A DNA stretch of 34,453 nt from an uncultured Bacilli bacterium (GTDB taxonomy: Bacteria; Bacillota_I; Bacilli_A; RF39; UBA660): the NCBI GenBank assembly GCA_947627995.1, contig CANQYE010000011.1:1-34453 (forward strand), read 5' to 3'. Position 1 is the first letter of the stretch. Every line of letters starts with the position of its first letter. Of the stretch, positions 76-19,316 are shown piece after piece. Below the pieces are notes generated by a model. The model saw nothing but the letters and a program-made list of their open reading frames with translations, searched no databases and was not told the origin of the DNA. A program made the position numbers and the translations under genes.

Positions 76-1554
76 TTATAATACTATAGCAATTAAATTA
101 TTTGCTCCTTTATTAACGATTTTAGTAATAGTTTGACCTAATTTAAATCTTGTATTTTCTGGCATTATTGAAAGTTTAGCTTGAATACCTTCTTTAACTA
201 TCTCATCTAAACTTCTTCCAAATATTTCACTTTTCCAAATATTATCTGGTTGTACCTCATAATCCTTCATTAGATAATTTATTAATTCTTTACTTTGAAG
301 CTCACTTCCAATAATTGGCTCAAATGTACTTTCTACATCAACTTTAATTAAATGAATCGAACTAGCTAATGCTTTTAATTTAACTCCATATCTATTACCT
401 TGTTTAATAATCTCTGGCGTATCTAATTTCATATCTTTTAAACCTGGGTACACAATTCCATAACCAGTACTTCTAACCATTTTAAGTGCATTTTTAATTT
501 GATCATATTCTTCTTTACCTTCACTAAATTCTGCAAATATTTTTAAAAGCCCTGCTTTAGTTGTAATAGTGGTACCCATAATACTTTGTAAAACATCATT
601 ATACAAAGAATCAGGTGCTTCTAAATTTAATGTTACTATTCCTGTTGATGTATCTACATTAGAAATATATGATTTAGCAATATATTCACTATCTTGAAAA
701 TGATTCATTATGTTTTCCACATCTTTTATTTTATCTACTTCAATAACACTTTCTCGAATTTTTTCTAAATAATGCTTTTTGACTTCATGTTCATTTGCAA
801 GTACATGAATCCATTCTGGCATTTTAACATTTATTTCTAATACTGGAAATTCATAAAGAGCCGTTTTAAGTATTTCATATATTTCTTTTTCATTCATATT
901 TTCAATACTTATTGGCATTACTGGTACATTATGCATTTCCTTAATTTCCTCTGCTAAAGCCCTAGTATCAGAATTATTTGGATGTGATGTGTTTAAGATT
1001 ACAATAAATGGTTTACCCATCATTTTAAGTTCGGTTATTACTTTTTCTTCGGCTTCTTCATAATCTCTTCTTCTAAGTTCTCCAAATGATCCATCACTTG
1101 TAACAACTATACCAATCGTGGAATGATCTTTAATAACTTTCTCTGTACCAACAGCTGCAGCTTCTACAAATGGAATATCTTCATCAAACCATGGTGTTTT
1201 GACCATACGAGGATTACCATTCTCATCTTCATAGCCTGTAGCATTAGGTATAACATATCCAACACAATCTATTAGTCGTATTTTTGATTTAAAATCATCA
1301 ACTTTAATAGTTGCACCATTTGAAGGAACAAATTTAGGCTCTGTTGTCATTATTCCTTTCCCTTGAGCACTTTGAGGAATCTCATCTAAACATCTCTTTT
1401 TTTCATATTCATCCTCAATATTTGGCACTACTAAATTTTCGATAAATCTTTTAATAAAAGTAGATTTACCTGTTCGAACGGCTCCTACTACGCCAAGATA
1501 AATTTCGCCATTTCCTCGTTTTGCAATGGATTCAATAATTTCTGTTTTTTCCAT
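76..1554 (-). CDS. spoIVA: Stage IV sporulation protein A (SpoIVA), spore-coat basement ATPase
   Basis: SpoIVA is the ATPase that polymerises on the forespore surface in the mother cell and anchors the spore coat. The product here is 492 residues, the same length as I recall for Bacillus subtilis SpoIVA. A Walker A motif GAVRTGKS lies at residues 24-31, with the catalytic lysine at 30, as in the family. The N-terminal GTPase-like domain is followed by the middle and C-terminal assembly regions, ending in NNLIAIVL. The frame is open 27 codons further upstream, but ATG at 1554 is preceded by a strong GGGGGA ribosome binding site, and it matches the family start. The gene is followed by a terminator and preceded by a possible mother-cell promoter. 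Its presence is good evidence that the organism sporulates. Confidence 0.97.
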   Translation of the reverse strand: MEKTEIIESIAKRGNGEIYLGVVGAVRTGKSTFIKRFIENLVVPNIEDEYEKKRCLDEIPQSAQGKGIMTTEPKFVPSNGATIKVDDFKSKIRLIDCVGYVIPNATGYEDENGNPRMVKTPWFDEDIPFVEAAAVGTEKVIKDHSTIGIVVTSDGSFGELRRRDYEEAEEKVITELKMMGKPFIVILNTSHPNNSDTRALAEEIKEMHNVPVMPISIENMNEKEIYEILKTALYEFPVLEINVKMPEWIHVLANEHEVKKHYLEKIRESVIEVDKIKDVENIMNHFQDSEYIAKSYISNVDTSTGIVTLNLEAPDSLYNDVLQSIMGTTITTKAGLLKIFAEFSEGKEEYDQIKNALKMVRSTGYGIVYPGLKDMKLDTPEIIKQGNRYGVKLKALASSIHLIKVDVESTFEPIIGSELQSKELINYLMKDYEVQPDNIWKSEIFGRSLDEIVKEGIQAKLSIMPENTRFKLGQTITKIVNKGANNLIAIVL

Positions 1555-1580
1555 TAAAATCCCCCTATCGTTTCTAATTA

Positions 1581-1608
1581 ACAATATGTAATTAAAAAAA
1601 ATATATGA
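1581..1608 (-). promoter_or_regulatory. Possible SigE-type promoter of spoIVA
   Basis: On the minus strand a CATATTGT box (1588-1581) resembles the -10 box of mother-cell sigma-E promoters (CATACANT-like), and an ATATAT element (about 1607-1601) sits at roughly -35 distance. The implied start would leave a leader of about 20 bases before the spoIVA ribosome binding site. spoIVA is SigE-controlled in B. subtilis. In such AT-rich DNA chance matches are frequent, so this is tentative. Confidence 0.3.
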
Positions 1609-1628
1609 AAAAAAACATATATTTTTAA
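1598..1628 (-). terminator. AT-only terminator hairpin after fhs
   Basis: Directly after the fhs stop codon the minus strand reads AAAATATATG, eight T, then CATATATTTTTTTT. That is a 10-bp stem with a T loop and a T tail. It sits between fhs and spoIVA and overlaps the proposed -35 region of spoIVA. The stem is almost all A-T pairs, so strength is uncertain. Confidence 0.45.
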
Positions 1629-1631
1629 AAA

Positions 1632-3188
1632 TCATTCAATTCCTTTTACTATTTCACCATCTATTTTTATTTTTTCATAATTAGGAATTTTAGGAAGACC
1701 CGGCATAGTCATAATATCAGCAAGATAAATACAAATATATCCAGCGCCATTATATAATTTAATATTTTTAATTAAAACATTATAATCTTTTGGATTACCT
1801 AATTTATTCTTATCATCTGAGATAGAAAATTGAGTTTTGGCGATACAAATAGGATATTTATTTAAGCTATTTTTTTCGATTATTTTTATTGCTTCCAACG
1901 CCTCTTTTGTATAATTTATATTTTTACAATTTAAAACTTCTTTCAATATTTTTTCAATTTTTATTTTAATATCGTCTTTTAAAGTATAGATTGGGGGTTT
2001 TTTCTTACTATATTTAGAAACAGAAATTATTTTTTTAGCTAAATCAATTGATCCTAAAGATCCATTATCATATGAAGATGATATAGAAAATAAAACATTA
2101 TTTTTTTGACAATATTTTTCTATAAATTGAATATCTTTTTCTTTATCATTTGGAAATTTATTTAAAGTTACAATAATATTATCTGTAAATTTTTTTAATA
2201 TTTGAATATGTGCTTCTAAATTTTCTATACCTTTTTCTAAAGAATTATATTTATATGCTTTTCCACTATGATATTTTAATGATGGTATATTAGTAACTAA
2301 TAATACAGCATCAGGATACATTTTATTTTGCCTAGAAACAATATCAAAAAATTTTATTCCTCCTAAATCGCTCCCAAAACCAGCTTCAGTGACTACATAA
2401 TCAGCTAAATTTAAGGCTGTGTTTAAAGCGATAACACTATTACATCCATGAGCAATATTTGCAAATGGACCACCATGAATTATCGTTGGAGTCTCTTCTT
2501 TTGTTTGAACTAAATTAGGTTTTAACGCCTCAATCAATAATGAAGCCATTGCATTTTCGATTTTTAATTGTTTAGCAAAAATTGCTTCATTATTTTTAGT
2601 ATAGCCAATTATAATATTCCCACATTTATAAATCAAATCTTTTAAATCTTTAGATAAAGTAAAAATTGCCATTAATTCCGAAGCTGCTGTAATATCAAAT
2701 GGAGCATTATCTATATTGCGTAATGTTCTATCATTAATATCTATACATCTTTTAATAGTAACTTTATTAATTTTTAATTTATTTCCTTGAAAAATATGAT
2801 TATCTACAGCCGCACATAATAAATTGTTAGCTGCTGAGATTGCTGCAAAATCACCAGTAAAATTTAAATTTATTGTATCGCTTGGGACAACTATAGACTT
2901 TCCCCCACCTGTTGCCCCACCTTTGACACCAAATACTGGTCCTAGTGAAGGCTCTCTTAATGTTAATATAGTTTTTTTATTTAATAATTTTAAAGCGTCA
3001 GCAACACCAATACTAACTGTTGTTTTACCTGAACCAATCATTGTACCATTTGTGGCTGTTACTAAAATTAATTTCCCTTTTTTTGATTTATTAATTTTAT
3101 TATAATCAATTTTAGCAATATGTTTTCCATAAGTTGTAATATATTTTTTTATTTTTAACTTTTGTGCAATTTTTTCTATATTTTTCAA
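1632..3188 (-). CDS. fhs: Formate--tetrahydrofolate ligase
   Basis: This cytosolic enzyme makes 10-formyl-tetrahydrofolate from formate, ATP and tetrahydrofolate, feeding purine synthesis and initiator tRNA formylation. The P-loop GSGKTT is at about residues 52-57, and the family signature REPSLGPVFGVKGG follows at about 78-91. Further conserved blocks (NLNFTGDFAAISAANNLL, then NDRTLRNI) match the family. At about 518 residues it is somewhat shorter than the usual 555 or so. The open frame begins with GTG at 3197, but that codon lies inside the GGTGA ribosome binding site; TTG at 3188, five bases after GGTGA, is the better start. The gene has its own extended -10 promoter and stops with TGA, which shows that TGA is not tryptophan here. 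Confidence 0.95.
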   Translation of the reverse strand: MKNIEKIAQKLKIKKYITTYGKHIAKIDYNKINKSKKGKLILVTATNGTMIGSGKTTVSIGVADALKLLNKKTILTLREPSLGPVFGVKGGATGGGKSIVVPSDTINLNFTGDFAAISAANNLLCAAVDNHIFQGNKLKINKVTIKRCIDINDRTLRNIDNAPFDITAASELMAIFTLSKDLKDLIYKCGNIIIGYTKNNEAIFAKQLKIENAMASLLIEALKPNLVQTKEETPTIIHGGPFANIAHGCNSVIALNTALNLADYVVTEAGFGSDLGGIKFFDIVSRQNKMYPDAVLLVTNIPSLKYHSGKAYKYNSLEKGIENLEAHIQILKKFTDNIIVTLNKFPNDKEKDIQFIEKYCQKNNVLFSISSSYDNGSLGSIDLAKKIISVSKYSKKKPPIYTLKDDIKIKIEKILKEVLNCKNINYTKEALEAIKIIEKNSLNKYPICIAKTQFSISDDKNKLGNPKDYNVLIKNIKLYNGAGYICIYLADIMTMPGLPKIPNYEKIKIDGEIVKGIE

Positions 3189-5452: not shown

Positions 5453-6496
5453 TTATTTTCTATAATTTACATTATATTCTTTAGTTTTTCCATTATTTGA
5501 GACAGTTATTTTAAATGTTAATGAATTATTTTGCACTTCTCCACCATAACTTGCAAATCCTTTTCCAGAAGAGCATCTAGTATCGCTTCCATGAATACAT
5601 ATTTTTATTTGAGCATTTTCTTTTTTTGCGGTTGCTTTTATTCCTCCACCAGCTAAAGAAGAATTAGTAATTTTTTGATTGTAAGTTGTTACAGAAGGTG
5701 AAAAATTTATTTTTTCTAATCCATCGGTAGTTGGTTCTATTGAACTTAAATAAACATCGTCATCAATGATGTCTTCATGTTTAATTGTAATATAAGATGA
5801 ATCCATTTGGCCATTTAAAGTAATCCTAATATTACCGGATAATTCACTACGTCCATTAAAAGCGTCACCTGAAGTAGCTTGTCCAGTGCCTTTTGAACAA
5901 TTGCTAGCAATACATACTTCAACTAATGCTTTTGGATCAACTGATGTAGCTGTTATAGAAATTCCACCATCAGATGTATATCGTGTAAAATGAATCCCAT
6001 CATTATTTTTTACATTTATGTTTTCAAATCCAGTAGCTGTTGAAGTAATACTTTTTAATAATCTACCAATAATACATGAAACATCGGATGCATATACACT
6101 GCCTGCTTCATTTTCTTTTATTGTTATCGAAAATTTTATATTATCCAAATATTCGTCATTTAGAAAACCCGCTTCTTCAGATGGGTATGGATTAGTAATA
6201 TGACTTCCAGTTTCATCTTTTATATCTTCTTTAACATAACCTGAATCTAATAATTCAGTCATTGCTATTGTATAGCTACAACCATTTTCACTATCAAAAC
6301 CAGAACTGCATTCTTCCTCATTATCTAATGCATATAATTTTACTGCTGATTTTAATGTTTCAATCTTTTTTTCATACATACTTTTTTTAATATTATTACT
6401 AATTTTTATAACAGATGGTACAGCAATAGTTAATAATATAGCTAATATTGCAATAACTGCGAGTAATTCAATAAGTGTAAATCCTTTTTTTTTCAT
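5453..6496 (-). CDS. Prepilin-like surface protein with cadherin-like repeats
   Basis: 347 residues. The N terminus KKKG^FTLIELLAVIAILAILL is a type IV prepilin leader: cleavage would fall after Gly5, Glu10 is the conserved +5 glutamate, and residues 6-30 form the hydrophobic helix. A pilin-like region follows, with a likely disulfide (CSSGFDSENGC). From about residue 145 to the end there are two beta-sandwich repeats, each with a paired-cysteine motif (VCIASNCSKGTG and ICIHGSDTRCSSGKG). The second ends in the typical TFKITVSNNGKTKEYNVNY strand pattern of cadherin-like (PF12733-type) domains. The same repeat forms the sortase-anchored protein at the right edge of the window. The gene has its own promoter and is monocistronic; no pilus assembly ATPase or prepilin peptidase lies nearby. 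Assignment to a pilus rather than a pseudopilin is open. Confidence 0.8.
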   Translation of the reverse strand: MKKKGFTLIELLAVIAILAILLTIAVPSVIKISNNIKKSMYEKKIETLKSAVKLYALDNEEECSSGFDSENGCSYTIAMTELLDSGYVKEDIKDETGSHITNPYPSEEAGFLNDEYLDNIKFSITIKENEAGSVYASDVSCIIGRLLKSITSTATGFENINVKNNDGIHFTRYTSDGGISITATSVDPKALVEVCIASNCSKGTGQATSGDAFNGRSELSGNIRITLNGQMDSSYITIKHEDIIDDDVYLSSIEPTTDGLEKINFSPSVTTYNQKITNSSLAGGGIKATAKKENAQIKICIHGSDTRCSSGKGFASYGGEVQNNSLTFKITVSNNGKTKEYNVNYRK

Positions 6497-7215: not shown

Positions 7216-7237
7216 AAGATGGAGTTAAATCCATCTT
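7216..7237 (-). terminator. Terminator spanning the stop of the 119-aa gene
   Basis: AAGATGGA (7216-7223), a six-base loop and TCCATCTT (7230-7237) form an 8-bp perfect stem. On the minus strand it is followed by TTCTAATTTG and then a T run. The stop codon lies in the loop, so the last codons of the gene encode one arm. Confidence 0.65.
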
Positions 7238-7584
7238 GTAATTCTTATTTTACGAGTAGTTCCTTCTTCGTATATATCAAATATTTTTAAAATATTTTCA
7301 ATTATAGCTTTAGCTAAATCAGGAACATTACGATTGATTTTAATTTTAGGAAGACTATTTTTCATTTCACTTCTAAAATAATAATCATCTATATATCGTG
7401 CAACAACTTTATCTAAAACTTTTATTCGATTAATATCTTCAATATTATTAATATCAATTCTAAATATATATTCTTGATAAAGCTCAATTAATTTTTCCGA
7501 TATAAAGTCATTTTCTAAATATTCAAAATTAACTATTTTATAAAAATTAGGACATTGTTTTATTATAAGCTTATTACGTTTCAT
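7225..7584 (-). CDS. Uncharacterised 119-residue protein
   Basis: I do not recognise this protein. It is 119 residues, acidic in the middle and basic at both ends (MKRNKLIIKQ at the start, RKIRITRWI at the end), with no signal peptide, membrane segment or clear metal site. Isoleucine, leucine and aromatic residues are spread regularly, suggesting a folded, mainly helical cytosolic protein. It is clearly a gene: it has a promoter (TTGACA, 17, TAATAT), a ribosome binding site (GGTGACTTAGG before ATG 7584) and a terminator at its stop. Its neighbours are ysxC and rasP, which do not suggest a role. Confidence 0.75.
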   Translation of the reverse strand: MKRNKLIIKQCPNFYKIVNFEYLENDFISEKLIELYQEYIFRIDINNIEDINRIKVLDKVVARYIDDYYFRSEMKNSLPKIKINRNVPDLAKAIIENILKIFDIYEEGTTRKIRITRWI

Positions 7585-10158: not shown

Positions 10159-10803
10159 TTAACAATCCATATATGTTCTCATTTTTTTTAAACTTTTTTG
10201 TTCAAGCCTTGATACCATAACTTGCGTTAAATTTAATTCATTAGCTATTTCACTTTGGGTTTTATCTTCAAAATATCGCATTTTTATTATTGATTTAGCT
10301 GGTTCTTCTAAAGTATCCACTGCATCTTGAACAAATATTTTTTCCAATAAATCTTCCTCTTTACTTGGAATTAAATTTTGTAAATTAATATCATTACAAT
10401 CATTATCCAAACTTAATGTTTTTTCACAAGCTAGCATAGTTTCATTAATTATATTAACATCAACTTCTAAAAACATAGCTAAATCATAATTAGTAGGATA
10501 TCTATTTAATTTTTGAGCAAGAATTTCTTTTGTTGAAATCAATTTTTTATACAAATTTAATGTTTCTTTACTAACTTTTATTTCTCTGTTTTTATTTACA
10601 CAATCGTACATCTCTCCAAAGATGTCATTATATGCGTAACTAGAAAATTTACATTTATCATTTTCTTTATATCTATTGTAAGCCTTTGTTAATCCTAATG
10701 CTCCTTGTTGAAATAAATCTTCCTTAGAAAAATTATAAAATTTTGATGCGACTTTATAAATTAAATTTTCATTTTCTTTTAATGTCATCTCTAAACTTTT
10801 CAT
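10159..10803 (-). CDS. sigF: Sporulation-type sigma factor (SigF/SigG family)
   Basis: A 214-residue sigma-70-family factor. Region 2 runs through DLFQQGALGLTKAYNRY (29-45) and the FSSYAYNDIFGEMYD block (53-67). A short region 3 contains LNRYPTNYDLAMFLEV (99-114). Region 4 has the HTH TQSEIANELNLTQVMVSRLE (182-201), whose Q-V-S-R-L-E core is typical of SigF, SigG and SigB. It is about 40 residues shorter than B. subtilis SigF. SigF is favoured over SigG because the gene directly follows a SpoIIAA-like gene and lies beside dacF, as in the B. subtilis dacF-spoIIA operon. The anti-sigma gene spoIIAB, normally in the middle, is missing: only eight bases separate the two genes. Start ATG 10803, AGGAGG ribosome binding site. 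Confidence 0.85.
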   Translation of the reverse strand: MKSLEMTLKENENLIYKVASKFYNFSKEDLFQQGALGLTKAYNRYKENDKCKFSSYAYNDIFGEMYDCVNKNREIKVSKETLNLYKKLISTKEILAQKLNRYPTNYDLAMFLEVDVNIINETMLACEKTLSLDNDCNDINLQNLIPSKEEDLLEKIFVQDAVDTLEEPAKSIIKMRYFEDKTQSEIANELNLTQVMVSRLEQKSLKKMRTYMDC

Positions 10804-10811
10804 AAATCCTC

Positions 10812-11144
10812 CTATAATACGATTGTTTTCAAAACTTCTTTTTCACTTTCTAATTTTAATATTGGTAAACTATTGAAATTTTTATATAAATTGAATGGTA
10901 TATTACAACCACAAAATAAACCTTTATTTTTATTAATTGCTTTAATTTCTTTTAATAAATTTTGTTTAGCAATACTATCTATATAAAATACTTTCGAAAA
11001 ATTATAAACAAGATATTTAACTTTATAATTAATAATTATTGGTAATAAATAGTTATTTAATTTTTTAGAAGTAACTTTGTCTAAATTGCCTTTTAATCTT
11101 ACAAAAAGAATACCTTTTTGAAATTCTAAATTAATTTTTAACAT
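10812..11144 (-). CDS. spoIIAA: SpoIIAA-like anti-anti-sigma factor (STAS domain)
   Basis: A 110-residue single STAS domain. Key family features are visible: LKGNLDKVTSKKL near residues 17-29 (the L-x-G-x-L-D strand) and, after a hydrophobic strand, YIDS at 54-57. Ser57 aligns with Ser58 of B. subtilis SpoIIAA, the residue phosphorylated by SpoIIAB. The residues following it (IAKQ instead of SGLG) are divergent, so phosphorylation control may be altered. In the classical system SpoIIAA frees SigF from SpoIIAB in the forespore. Here it is directly upstream of the sigma factor with no spoIIAB gene. Start ATG 11144 with GGAAGGTG. Confidence 0.85.
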   Translation of the reverse strand: MLKINLEFQKGILFVRLKGNLDKVTSKKLNNYLLPIIINYKVKYLVYNFSKVFYIDSIAKQNLLKEIKAINKNKGLFCGCNIPFNLYKNFNSLPILKLESEKEVLKTIVL

Positions 11145-11216
11145 TTATTCACCTTCCAAAGATAATATAGCGAAATTAAAAAACAATTTAAACACCTTCG
11201 ACAAAATTAGCTAAAT

Positions 11217-11376: not shown

Positions 11377-12543
11377 ATGAAAAAAATATTATTTACTTTT
11401 CTTATATTAATTACTATTACTAATAATGTTTGGGCACAAGAAAGTTCAAAAAATAAAACAGATATAGTTAATCATGCGAAAAGCGCAATTTTAATAGAAG
11501 CTTCAACAGGAAAAGTCTTATATGCCAAAAATGAAAATGAAAAATTAGCTCCCGCATCAATGACTAAAATCATGAGTTTACTACTTATTATGGGAAAAAT
11601 TGATAATCATGATATTAAATTAACTGATAAAGTCCCTGTATCAGAAAATGCATCTGGTATGGGTGGAAGTCAAATATTTCTAGAAACTGGATCAAATGTA
11701 AGTGTTAAAGAAATTCTTAAAGGAATTACTATCGCTTCAGCAAATGATGCAGTAGTAGCTATGGCCGAATATATTGGCGGCACAGAAGATGAATTTGTTA
11801 AAATGATGAATAAGAAGGCCAAAGAATTAGGACTTAAAAATACAGAATTTAAAAATTGTCATGGTTTAGATGAAGATAATCATTACTCAAGTGCAAAAGA
11901 TATGGCAATAATAGCAAAAGAACTTATAAAACATGAAGACATTCTAAATTATTCCAAAATATATGAAGATTATTTTACTAAACCGGATGGAAATAAAATA
12001 TGGCTTGTAAACACTAATAAATTAGTAAGATTCTATGATGGCGTCGATGGTCTTAAGACTGGCTATACCAGTAAAGCTGGCTATTGCTTAACAGCGACAG
12101 CTAAAAAAAATAATTTAAGAGTTATAAGCGTAGTTATGGGATCTGATACATCAGCCAATCGAAATAGTGACACAACAAATTTACTCAATTATGCTTTCAG
12201 CAATTACAAAGTTGATACACTTATTTCAAAAAATAAAAATCTTGGAAAAGTAAAAATTAATCGTGGGAAAAAAGAATATGGAAACTTAGTTTTAAAAAAT
12301 GATGCAACAATTTTACTTAAAAACAGTGAAAAAAGCAAAAAATATACATATAAAATTAAAAAAAATAATATAACCGCCCCAATAAAAAAAGGAGAAAAAG
12401 TTGCTACATTACAAATATATTATAAAAATAAGTTGATTAAAGAAGAAGACTTAACAATTAAAGAAGATATTTTAAAAGCTAATTTCTTTGATATTTATTT
12501 AAATACATTAAAACAAATATTTGGCGGGAAAAAACTATTTTAA
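11377..12543 (+). CDS. dacF: D-alanyl-D-alanine carboxypeptidase (DacF-type, S11 family)
   Basis: A penicillin-binding carboxypeptidase that trims the terminal D-Ala from peptidoglycan stem peptides. All three active-site motifs are present: SMTK (Ser61, Lys64), SAN (121-123) and KTG (227-229). Residues 1-20 are a signal peptide ending VWA. The C-terminal domain ends in an amphipathic helix (NFFDIYLNTLKQIF), the membrane anchor of class C penicillin-binding proteins. 388 residues is normal. In B. subtilis dacF is the first gene of the spoIIA operon; here it is beside spoIIAA but on the opposite strand, which supports the DacF assignment over DacA or DacB. Start ATG 11377 with AGGTGAG. A terminator follows. 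Confidence 0.92.
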   Translation: MKKILFTFLILITITNNVWAQESSKNKTDIVNHAKSAILIEASTGKVLYAKNENEKLAPASMTKIMSLLLIMGKIDNHDIKLTDKVPVSENASGMGGSQIFLETGSNVSVKEILKGITIASANDAVVAMAEYIGGTEDEFVKMMNKKAKELGLKNTEFKNCHGLDEDNHYSSAKDMAIIAKELIKHEDILNYSKIYEDYFTKPDGNKIWLVNTNKLVRFYDGVDGLKTGYTSKAGYCLTATAKKNNLRVISVVMGSDTSANRNSDTTNLLNYAFSNYKVDTLISKNKNLGKVKINRGKKEYGNLVLKNDATILLKNSEKSKKYTYKIKKNNITAPIKKGEKVATLQIYYKNKLIKEEDLTIKEDILKANFFDIYLNTLKQIFGGKKLF

Positions 12544-12584: not shown

Positions 12585-14754
12585 ATTTTTTCCTTTTTTT
12601 GCTATTTTGTTTTTTTTCATTATTATCTTTTTTTATAACATCTTTTCGAGATAAGTTTAATCGTCCCTTGTTATCATAACCTAATGATTTTACTATTATT
12701 TCGTCTCCAATAGATACTACATCTTCTGTTTTTTCTACTCTTTGATCAGAAAGTTTAGAAATATGAACAAGTCCTTCACAACCTGGCCATAATTCTACAA
12801 AACAGCCAAAATTTTCTATCTTAACAACTTTTCCAGTATAAATTTCTCCAGTTTCAACTTCTTTAACGATATTTTCAATCCTTTGATATGTTTTCTCAAT
12901 AACTTCATCATCCATGTGATAAATAATAACATTGCCATCATCATCAATATCAACTTTTACTGCATCTTTATCATTTACCGATTTAACATTACTTGATTCT
13001 AAGATAATTTTTGTAATCATCTCTCCTCCACGGCCGATTACATCTTTGATTTTTTCAGGATCAATTTTCATAGTTTTTACCTTAGGTGCATATGGACTTA
13101 GCTCTTTTCTTGGCTCAGGAATAACATCTGCCATTACTTCTAGTATTTGAAAACGAGCTTTTTTGGCTGCCAAAAGTGCTTCCTTTAATATTTTTTCGGT
13201 TACTCCTTTAATTTTAATATCCATTTGTAAAGCACATATACCTTTTTTAGTACCAGCTACTTTAAAATCCATATCTCCCATATGATCTTCTAAACCTTGA
13301 ATATCTGTTAATATAGTATGCTTTTTCCCATTTGCACTAGTGATTAATCCCATTGCTATACCTGCTACAGGAGCTTTTATAGGAACACCTGCTGCCATTA
13401 ATGATAAACAGCCAGCACAAATACTTGCTTGACTTGATGATCCGTTACTTTCTAAGATTTCTGATACTACTCTTATAGTATAAGGGAATTCTTCTTCACT
13501 TGGAATAACTTGTAAAAGTGCTCTTTCCCCTAATGCTCCATGGCCTATTTCACGACGTCCTGGCGCACCATATCTTCCAGTTTCTCCTACTGAAAAAGCT
13601 GGAAAATTATAATGTAACATAAATCTTTTGGTATCTTCTAATCCAAGTCCATCTAAAATTTGATGTTCCCCTAAAGCACCTAATGTTGTAATACTTAAAC
13701 TTTGAGTTTCTCCTCTTGTAAACATAGCACTACCATGAGTTCTTGGAAGTAAATCAATACTTGCACTTAAAGGTCTTATTTCATCCATTGCTCTTCCATC
13801 TGGGCGAATTTTTTTCTCAGTAATTAATCTTCTTACTTCATTAGCTTCAATCATGTTTAAAACTTTTGTTACTTGTTTTAATATTTCATCTAAATTTTCG
13901 TCTTCTTCATAAATTTTACTAAAGTAATTAATTGCATTTTCTTTAACTTTTTCAATTTCTTCATATTTAGCTAGCTTTTCTTTAATTTGGATAGCTGCTA
14001 ACATATCTTTTGTAGCATACTCTTCAACTTCTTTTTGTAATTTTTCATCAATTTTGGCTAGTTCAACTTCTACTTTTTTAACACCGATCTCTTTAATGAT
14101 TTTTTCTTGAAACTTAACTAACTTTTTAATAGCTTCATGCCCTTTCATTAAAGCTTCAAGCATTACTGATTCGCTTACTTCATGCGCACCAGCTTCAACC
14201 ATATTAATAGCATCTTTTGTTCCAGCTACAGTTAAATTTAATTCACTTTGTTCAAGTTCTTCTGCTGTTGGGTTAATAATATATTCTTTCCCAATTTTAC
14301 CAACAATAACCCCAGCTACAGGACCATCAAATGGAATTTTACTAATACATAAAGATAAACTTGAACCAAATAACGCTGTCATTTCAGGCGTACAATCTTG
14401 ATCTACAGATAAAACAGTATTAATTACTTGCACTTCATTTCGAAAATTTTCATCAAATAGTGGTCTTATTGGTCGATCAATTAGTCTAGAAGCTAGAGTT
14501 GCATTTTCGCTTGGTCTTCCTTCTCTTTTAATAAATCCACCTGGTATTTTACCAACAGAATATAATCTTTCTTGATAATTTACAGTTAGCGGAAAAAAGT
14601 CAGCAGTACTAACATTTTTACTCATCACACAAGTAGATAAAATTACAGTATCTCCATATCTTACCCATATAGAGCCATCAGCTTGCTTTGCCTTTTCACC
14701 ATGTTCTATAATTAATTTTTTTCCATAAAAATTTAATTCAAATGTTTTTTTCAT
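12583..14754 (-). CDS. pnp: Polyribonucleotide nucleotidyltransferase (PNPase)
   Basis: A 3'-5' phosphorolytic exoribonuclease of the RNA degradosome. 723 residues with the full domain set: first RNase PH domain, an all-helical linker, the second RNase PH domain ([15 protein letters not shown] around 340, [11 protein letters not shown] around 400), a KH domain with the GRGGEMI loop and a C-terminal S1 domain ([20 protein letters not shown]). A lysine-rich tail follows. Start ATG 14754 with AAAGGAG. It follows rpsO, the widely conserved rpsO-pnp pair. Only about 17 bases separate the terminator hairpin after rpsO from the start, so it probably depends on read-through. Confidence 0.98.
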
Positions 14755-14771
14755 AATTAACTCCTTTTTAT

Positions 14772-14804
14772 AAAAAAAGACACTAAAAGAATTTAAAAGT
14801 GCCT
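14772..14804 (-). terminator. Terminator between rpsO and pnp
   Basis: On the minus strand GGCACT (14803-14798) pairs with AGTGTC (14784-14779), followed by seven T and TATAAAAAGGAG. The loop is rich in T and A. It begins within the rpsO stop codon. Because no promoter fits between it and pnp, it probably acts as a partial terminator that lowers pnp relative to rpsO. Confidence 0.6.
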
Positions 14805-15072
14805 ATTTTCTAATATTTAATTTTTTAATTACTTCTCTATATCTTACAACGTCATTTACTTTAAGATAATCTAAAAGATTACGTCTTTTTCCAACCATCT
14901 TTTGTAAACCTCTTTTTGAATGATAATCATGAGTATGTTCTTTTAAATGTTCAGTTAACTCATTAATTCTTTTAGTAAGAATAGCAATTTGTACTTCAGA
15001 TTTACCAGTATCTTTTTCATTACCAGCAAATTCTTTTACTAATTGTGCTTTTACTTCTTTACTTAAAGCCAT
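14803..15072 (-). CDS. rpsO: 30S ribosomal protein S15
   Basis: 89 residues with the S15 signature: [20 protein letters not shown] at about 47-66, and the end [13 protein letters not shown]15 binds 16S rRNA early in 30S assembly and often represses its own mRNA. Start ATG 15072 with an AAAGGAGG ribosome binding site. A consensus promoter lies about 90 bases upstream, leaving a leader of about 80 bases that may carry an autoregulatory structure. Confidence 0.98.
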
Positions 15073-15152
15073 AATTATTTTCCTCCTTTATTATTTAACC
15101 GTTTAATCCTAGTAGAAATCCGGAAGACTATTTCAACCAAGAAAAAACTTTC
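15073..15152 (-). promoter_or_regulatory. rpsO leader, possible S15-binding regulatory RNA
   Basis: The leader predicted from the promoter at 15187-15159 is about 80 bases. It contains GAAAT (15136-15132) able to pair with ATTTC across a TCCGGA centre, and further complementary pieces (TAGT with ACTA). S15 leaders are autoregulatory in several bacterial groups with unrelated structures. The pairings here are short, so the structure is only a candidate. Confidence 0.3.
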
Positions 15153-15158
15153 TAATTA

Positions 15159-15187
15159 ATTATATAAAATTTTTCTAGAAATATCAA
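15159..15187 (-). promoter_or_regulatory. Sigma-A promoter of rpsO-pnp
   Basis: TTGATA (15187-15182), 17 bases, TATAAT (15164-15159) on the minus strand. The -10 is consensus and the -35 matches at five of six positions. Confidence 0.8.
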
Positions 15188-15217
15188 CTATTATTAGTTT
15201 TTTTCATAATTTTTTTA

Positions 15218-16960
15218 TCATTTTTTTTCACTGTTTAACAACTTTTCGTATTCATTAAGCAGTGAATTTAAATATTGCATACTTTCTTCAAAAGTTTTAT
15301 AATCTGTTAAATCTATGCCAGTAATTTTTAAAGTATCTAAAGTTGGTAAACTACCACCAATTGTTAAGAACTTCAAATATTTATTTAACATATCATCTTT
15401 ATTATTTTTTATATCATTGGCAATCTTAAGTGCTATTATATGACCAGTGGCGTATTGAAAATTATAAATCCTATATTGATCATAAAATAAATGCAATCTC
15501 ATTTGCCATAAATATTTTATATTTTCATCTATTTCAATTTCTGAATAAAATTCTTTAATTATATTAAAAAATGTTTCATTAATAATATCATTAGTTAAAA
15601 CTTTTTTATCATGTATTAGATCATATAATTTCAAATCAAACTCTAGATAAATAGTTTGTATAAAAACAGAGGCAATATATAATTCTATTCTTTGAGTTAA
15701 TAAGAATTTTTTTTCATCTATAGAATTAGCATTATCAAATAAATAATTATCAAAAATATTTTCATTAACCTTAGAAGCTATTTCTGATAAAAATATAGAA
15801 TAATGAAAATCTTGATATGTTTGGTTATTTTTAACTAGAAAACAATTAACTGCATGTCCAAGCTCATGAGTAGTAGTATATACATCTTTAAGATTCCCTT
15901 TATAATTCATTAAAATCATTGACTTTATATAATTACGAAAATGATAACCACCTAAAAATTTGTTTTTAGCAGGATATATATCTAAACTTCCACTTTCTAG
16001 CACTTTATCTAACGACTCATTATACATTGGACCCATAATAGTTAAAGATTTCTTAATTAAATCTAATCCTTCATCAAATGTTATATTTTTATTAAAATCA
16101 TTTTTTATACTTAAATCATACCAATGAATTTTTTTTAAAGATAAGTCTTCCTTTTTCATGCCCAAATATTTATTTAAAAGGTGTAAATTACTATGAACAG
16201 ATTTTCGTAAATTTTCAATAATTTTTATATCTAAATCATCTTCATTTATTATTTGCTCGATTACTGAAGAATAACCTTTTTTTAAGGCTATTTCATTACA
16301 TAAGCTCATTCTTGTATTAAGTAATTTTGAAATGCTTCTATTAACTTTGGCTAAATTATTTGTATAAATATTAAATACTTTTCTTCTAATTTTACCATCT
16401 GTTTGAGATATATATTTTTGATAATTTTTATTATCAATAACTACCCTTTCTCCATTAATAATTGTTGGTTTATATTCCATTTCAATATTCTGTATCGTAT
16501 TGTATAAAGAATTTATTTCTGGAATTAATTTTGATAAAAAACTTTCATCACTATTCATATTAGTTTTTAATCTTAAAACATCATATAAATGCATTTTATA
16601 TTTTCTTAATCTTTTATCACTTTCAAGCAATTGATCTAAAGATTTATTTTTATCAATAATTTTTTTATTAATTAAAATTTTACAATAATTTTTCCTAGCA
16701 ATTTCGTTATTTATTAAACTTTTATATTGTAAATATTTTTGATTGGCCATATCTAAATCTGAGTTTAATTCAGCATACACTAATAATTTTTCTATTTTAA
16801 AGGATATATCATAATATTTTTCTAACAAAGAAAATATATCAAGATTATTTATTTCATTTGTAAACTCATCTAACTGTTTTTTTACAATATTTAATTGCTT
16901 TTCAAAATCTAAATCGGACTCACAAAATTCTTTAAAATTCCAATTATACTTATTTTTCAT
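15218..16960 (-). CDS. pepF: M3-family oligoendopeptidase (PepF-like)
   Basis: A cytosolic zinc metallopeptidase that degrades oligopeptides. The zinc motif HELGH is at residues 365-369, followed by EIASKVNE with the likely third zinc ligand Glu393. The N-terminal helical PepF domain precedes it. 580 residues is close to the usual 600. The start ATG 16960 is preceded by GGTGAAC. The gene lies behind the ABC transporter gene, separated by a terminator, and rpsO follows. No sign of secretion. PepF versus another M3 oligopeptidase cannot be settled by eye. Confidence 0.9.
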   Translation of the reverse strand: MKNKYNWNFKEFCESDLDFEKQLNIVKKQLDEFTNEINNLDIFSLLEKYYDISFKIEKLLVYAELNSDLDMANQKYLQYKSLINNEIARKNYCKILINKKIIDKNKSLDQLLESDKRLRKYKMHLYDVLRLKTNMNSDESFLSKLIPEINSLYNTIQNIEMEYKPTIINGERVVIDNKNYQKYISQTDGKIRRKVFNIYTNNLAKVNRSISKLLNTRMSLCNEIALKKGYSSVIEQIINEDDLDIKIIENLRKSVHSNLHLLNKYLGMKKEDLSLKKIHWYDLSIKNDFNKNITFDEGLDLIKKSLTIMGPMYNESLDKVLESGSLDIYPAKNKFLGGYHFRNYIKSMILMNYKGNLKDVYTTTHELGHAVNCFLVKNNQTYQDFHYSIFLSEIASKVNENIFDNYLFDNANSIDEKKFLLTQRIELYIASVFIQTIYLEFDLKLYDLIHDKKVLTNDIINETFFNIIKEFYSEIEIDENIKYLWQMRLHLFYDQYRIYNFQYATGHIIALKIANDIKNNKDDMLNKYLKFLTIGGSLPTLDTLKITGIDLTDYKTFEESMQYLNSLLNEYEKLLNSEKK

Positions 16961-16984
16961 TTAGTTCACCATAATTATTTTATC

Positions 16985-17011
16985 ATAAAAAAATAAGGAA
17001 TTCACCTTATT
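16985..17011 (-). terminator. Terminator overlapping the stop of the ABC gene
   Basis: AATAAGG (16992-16998), a six-base loop and CCTTATT (17005-17011) form a 7-bp stem, followed on the minus strand by a run of T. The stop codon of the ABC transporter gene (17007-17009) lies inside the stem. Confidence 0.75.
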
Positions 17012-19316
17012 CTGTTCTTAAAGATTCAACTGGATCTTTTTTACTAGCAATTTTTGCAGGTATAAAACCACCTATTAAAGTTAAGATCATACTAATAATT
17101 ATTAAAATTATTGCATGAATTGGATTTAATTTTGCTACTCCTGCCAATCCTGATAAAGACTCAATAATTGCATTAGCTGGAATAGTAAGAATTAAAGCTA
17201 TTCCTATTCCCAATAAGCCAGAAAATAAACCAATAATAAATGTTTCAGCATTAAATACACGAGTAATATCTTTTTTACGAGCACCTAAAGCTCTTAAAAT
17301 TCCAATTTCTTTTGTTCTTTCTAGTACAGAAATATAAGTAATTATTCCTATCATTATTGATGAAACAATTAATGATATTGATGAAAATGCTATTAAAACA
17401 ATAGTTATTGCACTCATTATATTTCCTGATAAATTTGAAAGTAAACTAGACATATCTGTATATAAAACTTGTTCTGTTTCTACTTTAGATTCATTATAAT
17501 TATCCAGATATTCTAATACTTTATCTTTAGTATCAAAATCTTTTGGATATATATAAATAGCAACTGGAGTAGATTCGGCGCCTAAATAAGCTAAAGCTAA
17601 TTTTTTAGTATTAGTGCTTCCCTTACTTTCATCAAATTTTTGATTTGTTAATACATTAAAATCACTTTTACTTTGTGATTCAACTATTTTAGAATCTTTA
17701 TTTTTTTCAATAATTAAATCAGTTAAGGCTGAAGTATAGACAATACCCGATCCATTAGTTATTATTTCTTTATCTTCTTTTCCGCGAATTATAGCTTTTA
17801 CTTTTAATGAAATACTATTTTTGCTATTATATAAAGATTCATAATCGTTTGAAGGAATATATCTACCATTATATATTTTATAATAATCATCATTAGCAAT
17901 TACTTTTAGCTCTTGATTCATTATTTTATTAAAAGAAACTTCATCATCAGTAAAACCTAATTGTTCTAAAACGTTTTTTGAAACTCTATTTTTGCTATCG
18001 ACTTGTAAAATTAATCCAACTTCATCACTATTTATATTTCCTGCCAAAATATCATAGTTATCTGTTATAATATTAGAAACTTTATTATTTGAGTCTGGTA
18101 AAATGGTCCAGCTTCCACCCATTTGATTATTTGTTTCAACAAGTTTATATCCAGTTTCAGGATTATAATTTATAACATTAAAACCAACACTTTTTTGTAA
18201 TGAGATGCCAGATATTAACGAATTATCCATTTGTTCAATATAATTTACATATTCATCTGTTATATTATTTTCATGAAACATTAATTCTTTCATATCGCTT
18301 AAAGCTATAACAGATTCTTTTTTAGGATATTTTTTTAGCGAATCTTCTTGATTTTGCATTTTTGTTATAGTTTCTTCATCCATTTGAATTGATTGTTCCG
18401 CTACCATTATTGGCATTTTTGAAAGAGACTCTCTTTCAAAATTATCTACTTCAATTTGAAATCCATTTGATAAAGATAAAATTAAGGCAATACCGATAAT
18501 ACCTATTGAAGAAGCAAATGATGTTAAAATCGTTCTTCCTTTTTTTGTTTTTATATTATTTAACGAAAGCTTAAGAGCTGTTAAAAAGCTCATAGAAGTC
18601 TTTTTTATTTTATATTTTTTATCTTCTTTATTTTTGGCTTTTGATTTTGATGAATCTTTTATAATTATTCCATCTTTCATCTCGATAATTCTGTTTGCAT
18701 AATTTTTTGCTAAATCTGGGTTATGAGTAACCATTATAACAAGTTTATCTTTAGCTATTTTTTTTATTAACTCCATGATTTGAACACTTGTCTTGGAATC
18801 TAATGCCCCTGTTGGTTCATCTGCCAAGATAATATCCGGATCATTCGCAAGAGCTCTTGCAATTGCAACTCTTTGCATTTGTCCACCTGAAAGCTGATTT
18901 GGTTTTTTATGAATATGTTTTTCCAAACCAACAAGTTTTAATACTTCTAATGCTTTTTTTCTTCTTTGACGCGTGCTAACACCACTTAAAGTCATACCAA
19001 GTTCTACATTTGAAAGAATATTAATATGTCCAATTAAATTATAATTTTGAAAAATAAAACCAATACAATTATTTCGATAAGCATCCCATTCATTATTTTT
19101 AAATTTCTTCGTAGATTTTTCATTAATTATCAAATCGCCAGAATCATAACGATCTAAGCCTCCTATAATATTTAATAATGTAGTTTTACCACTACCAGAA
19201 GGCCCTAATATTGCTACAAATTCATTTTTTTTAAAATTAACACTAATATTTTTTAAAGCATCTTGCTTAAAATTACCTGTAATATAACTTTTGCTAATTT
19301 TTTTTAGTTCTAACAT
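17007..19316 (-). CDS. Fused ABC transporter ATPase/FtsX-type permease (MacB-like)
   Basis: 769 residues joining an ABC ATPase to an FtsX/MacB-type permease. Walker A GPSGSGKT is at 38-45, the Q-loop glutamine at 90, the signature LSGGQ at 142-146, Walker B ILADEP at 163-168, and the switch histidine at 198. After a lysine-rich linker, one membrane helix at about 260-285 precedes a large extracytoplasmic domain. Three helices near the C terminus (about 635-760) include the FtsX pattern [19 protein letters not shown]. Such transporters move peptides or lipids, or act as mechanotransmitters in antimicrobial-peptide resistance; the substrate is not evident. It is monocistronic, with a promoter and a terminator of its own. 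Start ATG 19316 with AGGAGGG. Confidence 0.92.

Follow-up and report, generated by a model that had tools for sequence, protein, structure and literature searches.

In an order of uncultured gut Bacilli with reduced genomes, which judging from genome size, host source, and gene content is very probably the GTDB order RF39, the spoIIA operon has been stripped of the kinase–phosphatase arm of the sigma-F switch, which was lost once, at the base of the order. In the window (the whole 34,453-nt stretch of DNA analyzed here), this operon starts with a gene for a SpoIIAA-like STAS protein, directly followed by a gene for a sigma-F-type RNA polymerase sigma factor. Sequence comparisons show that SpoIIAA, SigF, SigG, SpoIIR, and Spo0A have been kept and that SpoIIAB and SpoIIE are missing. 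Together, the loss of SpoIIAB and SpoIIE, the eroded sites of SpoIIAA, and the retained promoter indicate that the order as a whole has dismantled its partner switch. Based on these losses, residues, and predicted promoter elements, we consider it reasonably probable that the operon has lost its phospho-relay arm, that sigma-F is now set mainly by synthesis driven by phosphorylated Spo0A (Spo0A~P), and that SpoIIAA no longer serves as a phospho-switch.

Both genes are encoded on the minus strand. The STAS gene (11144 to 10812; 110 aa) is separated from the sigma factor gene (10803 to 10159; 214 aa) by exactly 8 bp (10804..10811), the site occupied by spoIIAB in other Bacilli. The original observation, a STAS–sigma pair without spoIIAB, is thereby confirmed, as this gap leaves no space for the gene. 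Outgroup loci (L019, L020, L022, L028, and L029) carry the order spoIIAA-spoIIAB-sigF. Comparison of the locus in relatives covered 33 other family genomes with sigF, of which 29 again carry the pair without spoIIAB (30 of 34 counting the window genome); so do 75 of 80 named loci. This recurrence is not explained by chance. The named relatives are uncultured Bacilli, Tenericutes, and Mycoplasmatota genomes, including Candidatus Caccenecus. The divergent neighbor of the operon (11377..12543, plus strand) encodes a dacF-like S11 D-Ala-D-Ala carboxypeptidase (PF00768, E=6e-86). It had been proposed to be dacF, displaced to the other strand; the orientation holds, but dacF is indistinguishable from other S11 enzymes. 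Coupling of the STAS gene to sigF is not obligatory: one relative (G001, L110:5266-7763) has metK between them. Many relatives also encode an unnamed, probable membrane protein of 370–475 aa directly upstream of the STAS gene (L125:1216-2613, and similarly in about ten). This protein contains a motif like RYRFYKEE, has no convincing Pfam or NCBIfam match, and is a candidate partner.

The window STAS protein matches Pfam PF01740 (E=4e-10), and the solved structure closest to it in sequence is SpoIIAA 1th8 (E=5e-7). Against the SpoIIAA model TIGR02886 it scores 39.5 bits, below the cut-off of 114.75. An AlphaFold model of the protein (pLDDT 94.4) has its best PDB match in SpoIIAA 1thn (TM 0.92), which is SpoIIAA out of a SpoIIAA–SpoIIAB complex; in this model, the protein still folds like SpoIIAA. 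The former phospho-site loop reads D56-S57-I58-A59-K60-Q61 (10962..10979, minus strand), the equivalent of D57-S58-S59-G60-L61-G62 in Bacillus subtilis. The altered loop had been read correctly: the window protein, among few relatives with a serine at the phospho-position, continues with Ile-Ala-Lys-Gln and not with Ser-Gly-Leu-Gly. Across 105 family STAS proteins, a set weighted toward the window's own part of the order, the Ser58 column retains Ser in four and Thr in two (6/105) and has lost them in 99/105, while all eight outgroups have Ser. Likewise, the Gly62 column is conserved in 0/105 family proteins versus 8/8 outgroups, and Arg at the Arg67 column is found in 0/105 versus 8/8 (the window protein has E66). 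Arg67 of SpoIIAA is part of both the SpoIIE and the SpoIIAB interfaces (PMC11418112). The alignments thus show the predicted phosphorylation and docking features of SpoIIAA to be lost in nearly all members. Glu is the commonest residue at the Ser58 column (53/105). A phosphomimetic Glu as a fixed state was considered as a general rule and rejected, because Glu is enriched in part of the order only: in a one-per-genus sample of 30 STAS proteins, the column holds N, M, E, L, I, S, K, and others, with Glu in 4/30. The honest statement is that constraint on the Ser58 column appears to have been lost, with Glu recurrent in some clades.

How sigma-F would be controlled in such a system can be sketched as follows. 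No anti-sigma kinase would hold sigma-F, its output would come mainly from Spo0A~P-driven synthesis, and it would be active upon binding core RNA polymerase. Restriction to the forespore would be provided by some compartment signal other than the SpoIIAB/SpoIIE relay, so that sigma-F is probably gated by Spo0A-driven synthesis and a further compartment signal. SpoIIAA would play an accessory part: purifying selection would maintain it in some lineages, while others could dispense with it. To our knowledge, the order has no cultured member, and we infer the activity of its sigma-F from genome data. B. subtilis requires SpoIIAB to hold sigma-F inactive before septation, which makes sigma-F that is active on synthesis a demanding claim. 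A broader reading is that the whole order makes endospores with a sigma-F never held by SpoIIAB, confined to the forespore by different means, with SpoIIAA as a phosphorylation-independent regulator; we find this plausible, at just short of an even chance.

The main alternative is that regulation was rewired and not lost, so that the anti-sigma factor is now either the STAS protein or some unrelated one. For example, with Glu keeping it permanently in a phospho-like state, the STAS protein could bind sigma-F directly; or its target could be the GHKL domain of a histidine kinase. In most loci, the STAS gene adjoins sigF with a start/stop overlap or a gap of a few bases, the modeled fold appears intact, and the Glu residues at the phospho-position are clustered on the tree, all of which would suit such a role. 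Moreover, dN/dS of the STAS gene is 0.02–0.34 in close pairs (diverged pairs were saturated and ignored), indicating purifying selection on a protein that is not junk; the strong constraint in some clades implies that it does something, perhaps exactly to sigma-F. A non-homologous anti-sigma factor would escape the homology searches used. However, sigF occurs with its promoter and without an adjoining STAS gene in four family genomes and five of the 80 named loci, and these nine loci require three or more separate changes when placed on the sigma tree. The varied residues of the one-per-genus sample also argue against a fixed mimic, and we know of no STAS protein that binds a sigma factor directly. 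Taken together, we consider rewiring unlikely, though worth serious attention, and favor loss of the relay.

Loss of the relay leaves the promoter, and the operon is shown to start at a conserved, predicted Spo0A-box promoter. In the window, a putative Spo0A box (TTGTCGAA; 11197..11204, minus strand) is located 59 nt upstream of the STAS start codon. An anchored promoter profile places two further conserved elements after the box: first a -35-like TGTTTAAA block (11187..11194, minus strand) and then TATATT, a sigma-A-like -10 element (11164..11169, minus strand). The core 0A box is TGTCGAA (PMC3485338). The window contains a single copy of TTGTCGAA, with 0.62 expected there by chance. Among related loci, the box is found upstream of the operon in 95 of 103, in nearly all of these at about -57 to -65 from the STAS start and in one orientation; shuffled sequences gave a mean of 1.8 (maximum 6), and upstream regions of unrelated ORFs gave 10/221. 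All nine STAS-less loci keep TTGTCGAA upstream of sigF. A Spo0A-like box is also present near spoIIAA in four of five outgroups, so Spo0A control is probably ancestral. Being common to most outgroups, the predicted box alone does not show a changed mechanism. The novelty is that Spo0A control, as predicted from this promoter, is the sole recognized layer of control that remains.

Retention of the promoter is accompanied by retention of other sporulation genes. Within the window's family, sigF is found at the STAS locus in 34 of 37 genomes. SpoIIR is present in all 34 of these, while Spo0A and SigG are encoded in nearly all sigF-bearing genomes, including the window genome. From the other three of the 37, SigG and SpoIIR are missing along with sigF, so the sporulation set is lost as a unit. 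The window itself encodes spoIVA (76..1635, minus strand; TIGR02836, 652 bits, cut-off 459.9), a sign of a retained sporulation program. These observations bear on a second alternative, namely that these lineages have given up sporulation and their operon is decaying. Such decay would fit the small family genomes (0.8–1.7 Mb), the three that have dispensed with the set, and one sporulation predictor, whose predicted spore formers all have spoIIAB and which scores RF39 genomes at 0% (PMC12536801). However, this predictor treats spoIIAB as universal and may therefore be biased against the order. SpoIIR, SigG, and Spo0A stay or go with sigF, reading frames are open in 34 genera, close-pair dN/dS is well under 1, the Spo0A box and the -10 element are conserved across genera, and spoIVA of the window genome exceeds its curated cut-off. 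We therefore regard decay as improbable.

The absence of SpoIIAB was assessed at several levels. In 385 genomes of the order, representing 117 genera and including 306 genomes at ≥90% completeness, no SpoIIAB was found at E≤1e-13. Among the 37 family genomes, none had a match over the profile cut-off, while SpoIIAB was detected in eight class relatives at 156–186 bits. The window genome (969 kb, 94% complete) was searched by protein family for a SpoIIAB/RsbW-type HATPase; no SpoIIAB was found, there was no match to HATPase_c_2 (PF13581), and its only five GHKL proteins are open frames of 587–713 aa. The suggestion that SpoIIAB had moved elsewhere is thus unsupported. SpoIIE is missing as well: its full-length model gave no match above 22 bits in the 37 family genomes, and the phosphatase domain PF07228 gave no credible match in the 34 that carry sigF, while SpoIIE is present in 8/8 SpoIIAB-bearing outgroups. 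In a class-wide sample of 395 genomes, considering only those with SpoIIR, SpoIIAB was found in 0/47 genomes of the window's family, which count as one phylogenetic event and not as 47 independent ones, versus 46/53 others. Several of the seven exceptions outside the family are incomplete genomes. Three class relatives (G475, G623, and G672, from families f16 and f21) have SpoIIR and no SpoIIAB at E≤1e-25, and may represent independent losses or assembly gaps.

Assembly gaps or extreme divergence might hide an existing SpoIIAB in a genome that is 94% complete and a family whose sigma and STAS proteins evolve fast. However, the count is zero across the entire order, the family HATPase matches listed at E≤10 are mostly long, kinase-sized frames, and the STAS residues that would face SpoIIAB are gone too. 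Five short or unusual GHKL frames (L234-L238) were inspected as possible hiding places of SpoIIAB and rejected, as they are truncated or small histidine kinases. This explanation is close to refuted, and we give it very little credence. Of the original interpretation, the idea of a forespore switch with a different mechanism in this lineage is supported. It gains further weight because SpoIIE is missing, most relatives no longer have the phospho-serine, and none has Arg67; a relocated SpoIIAB and a short sigma factor as a signal are the parts that did not hold.

The sigma factor itself contains sigma-70 regions 2, 3, and 4 and is closest to SigF. Its top NCBIfam match is SigF (TIGR02885; 140.8 bits, under the curated cut-off of 321.45), and its top PDB match is the sigma-F of 1l0o. 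In most relatives, sigF is followed by spoVAC, spoVAD, and spoVAE, so that the STAS-sigF-spoVAC-spoVAD-spoVAE context matches the spoIIAA-AB-sigF-spoVAC arrangement of the outgroups. When 68 sigma factors were placed in a tree, the family's 34 sigmas from STAS loci fell on one side of a branch (SH-aLRT 87), and SigG was set apart from the family SigF group with a support of 99. The window genome encodes SigG separately, on another contig (G000:C13). That the window sigma is a stress-type SigB or a second SigG, with sigF elsewhere, would fit its score below the SigF cut-off but is already contradicted by the top match, the separate SigG gene, the spoIIA-like operon context, and the tree, and is extremely improbable. 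B. subtilis SigF is 255 aa long, and the window protein had been called about 40 residues shorter than usual. This is correct relative to B. subtilis; as a clue, length was rejected, since outgroup SigF proteins that occur with SpoIIAB measure 181–241 aa. The column taken as equivalent to E156 of SigG, a SpoIIAB contact, varies (D, T, N, Q) also in outgroup SigF proteins that occur with SpoIIAB.

Compared with the SpoIIAA–SpoIIAB–sigma-F and SpoIIE switch of B. subtilis and clostridia, the order shares a spoIIAA homolog directly upstream of sigF, a Spo0A-linked promoter, SpoVA genes downstream in most relatives, and SpoIIR and SigG in the genome. In contrast, it has neither the anti-sigma kinase nor the PP2C phosphatase, SpoIIAA is dispensable, and the phospho-serine and docking Arg67 are lost in the family. 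The RsbV–RsbW–sigma-B switch shares the STAS and SigB/F/G sigma families, but neither an RsbW-type kinase nor an RsbU-type phosphatase was found here, and the operon context is one of sporulation. The SpoIIAB/SpoIIE relay is the textbook route from the asymmetric septum to two cell fates, and the first cell-fate decision in this order must run by other means. An order that keeps the program without the relay shows what is dispensable, offers a natural comparison for finding the compartment signal, and warns against scoring sporulation via spoIIAB. According to Galperin 2012 (PMC3533761), spoIIAA, spoIIAB, sigF, and spoIIE occur in every spore former among the bacilli and clostridia. For RF39, a gene inventory (Field, Bowerman and Hugenholtz 2024, PMC10868615) already stated that spoIIAB and spoIIE are reduced or missing, in a single sentence that is silent on the retained spoIIAA-sigF operon, the erosion of the phospho-site, the conservation of the promoter, and the losses of SpoIIAA. 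The literature searched yielded no earlier description of the operon, of the loss of the phospho-site, or of the promoter.

Several other features of the window and its genome were recorded. On contig C21 of the window genome (L135:5118-9365; G000:C21, about 13100-17366), an open frame of at least 1416 aa fuses an RpoD-like sigma factor (regions 1.2, 2, 3, and 4) to at least 12 Helicase-associated (PF03457) repeats. A sigma-like ORF of 572 aa comes before it, and four other genomes (G003, G007, G012, and G035) have long sigma frames as well. Within the window, a 119-aa ORF without a Pfam match (7225-7584, minus strand) lies between a YsxC-like GTPase gene and rseP. Finally, positions 5453-6496 (minus strand) encode a 347-aa protein with a prepilin-type N-terminus (GFTLIELLAVIAILAIL) and a repeat-like extracellular part, in a genome of less than one megabase.
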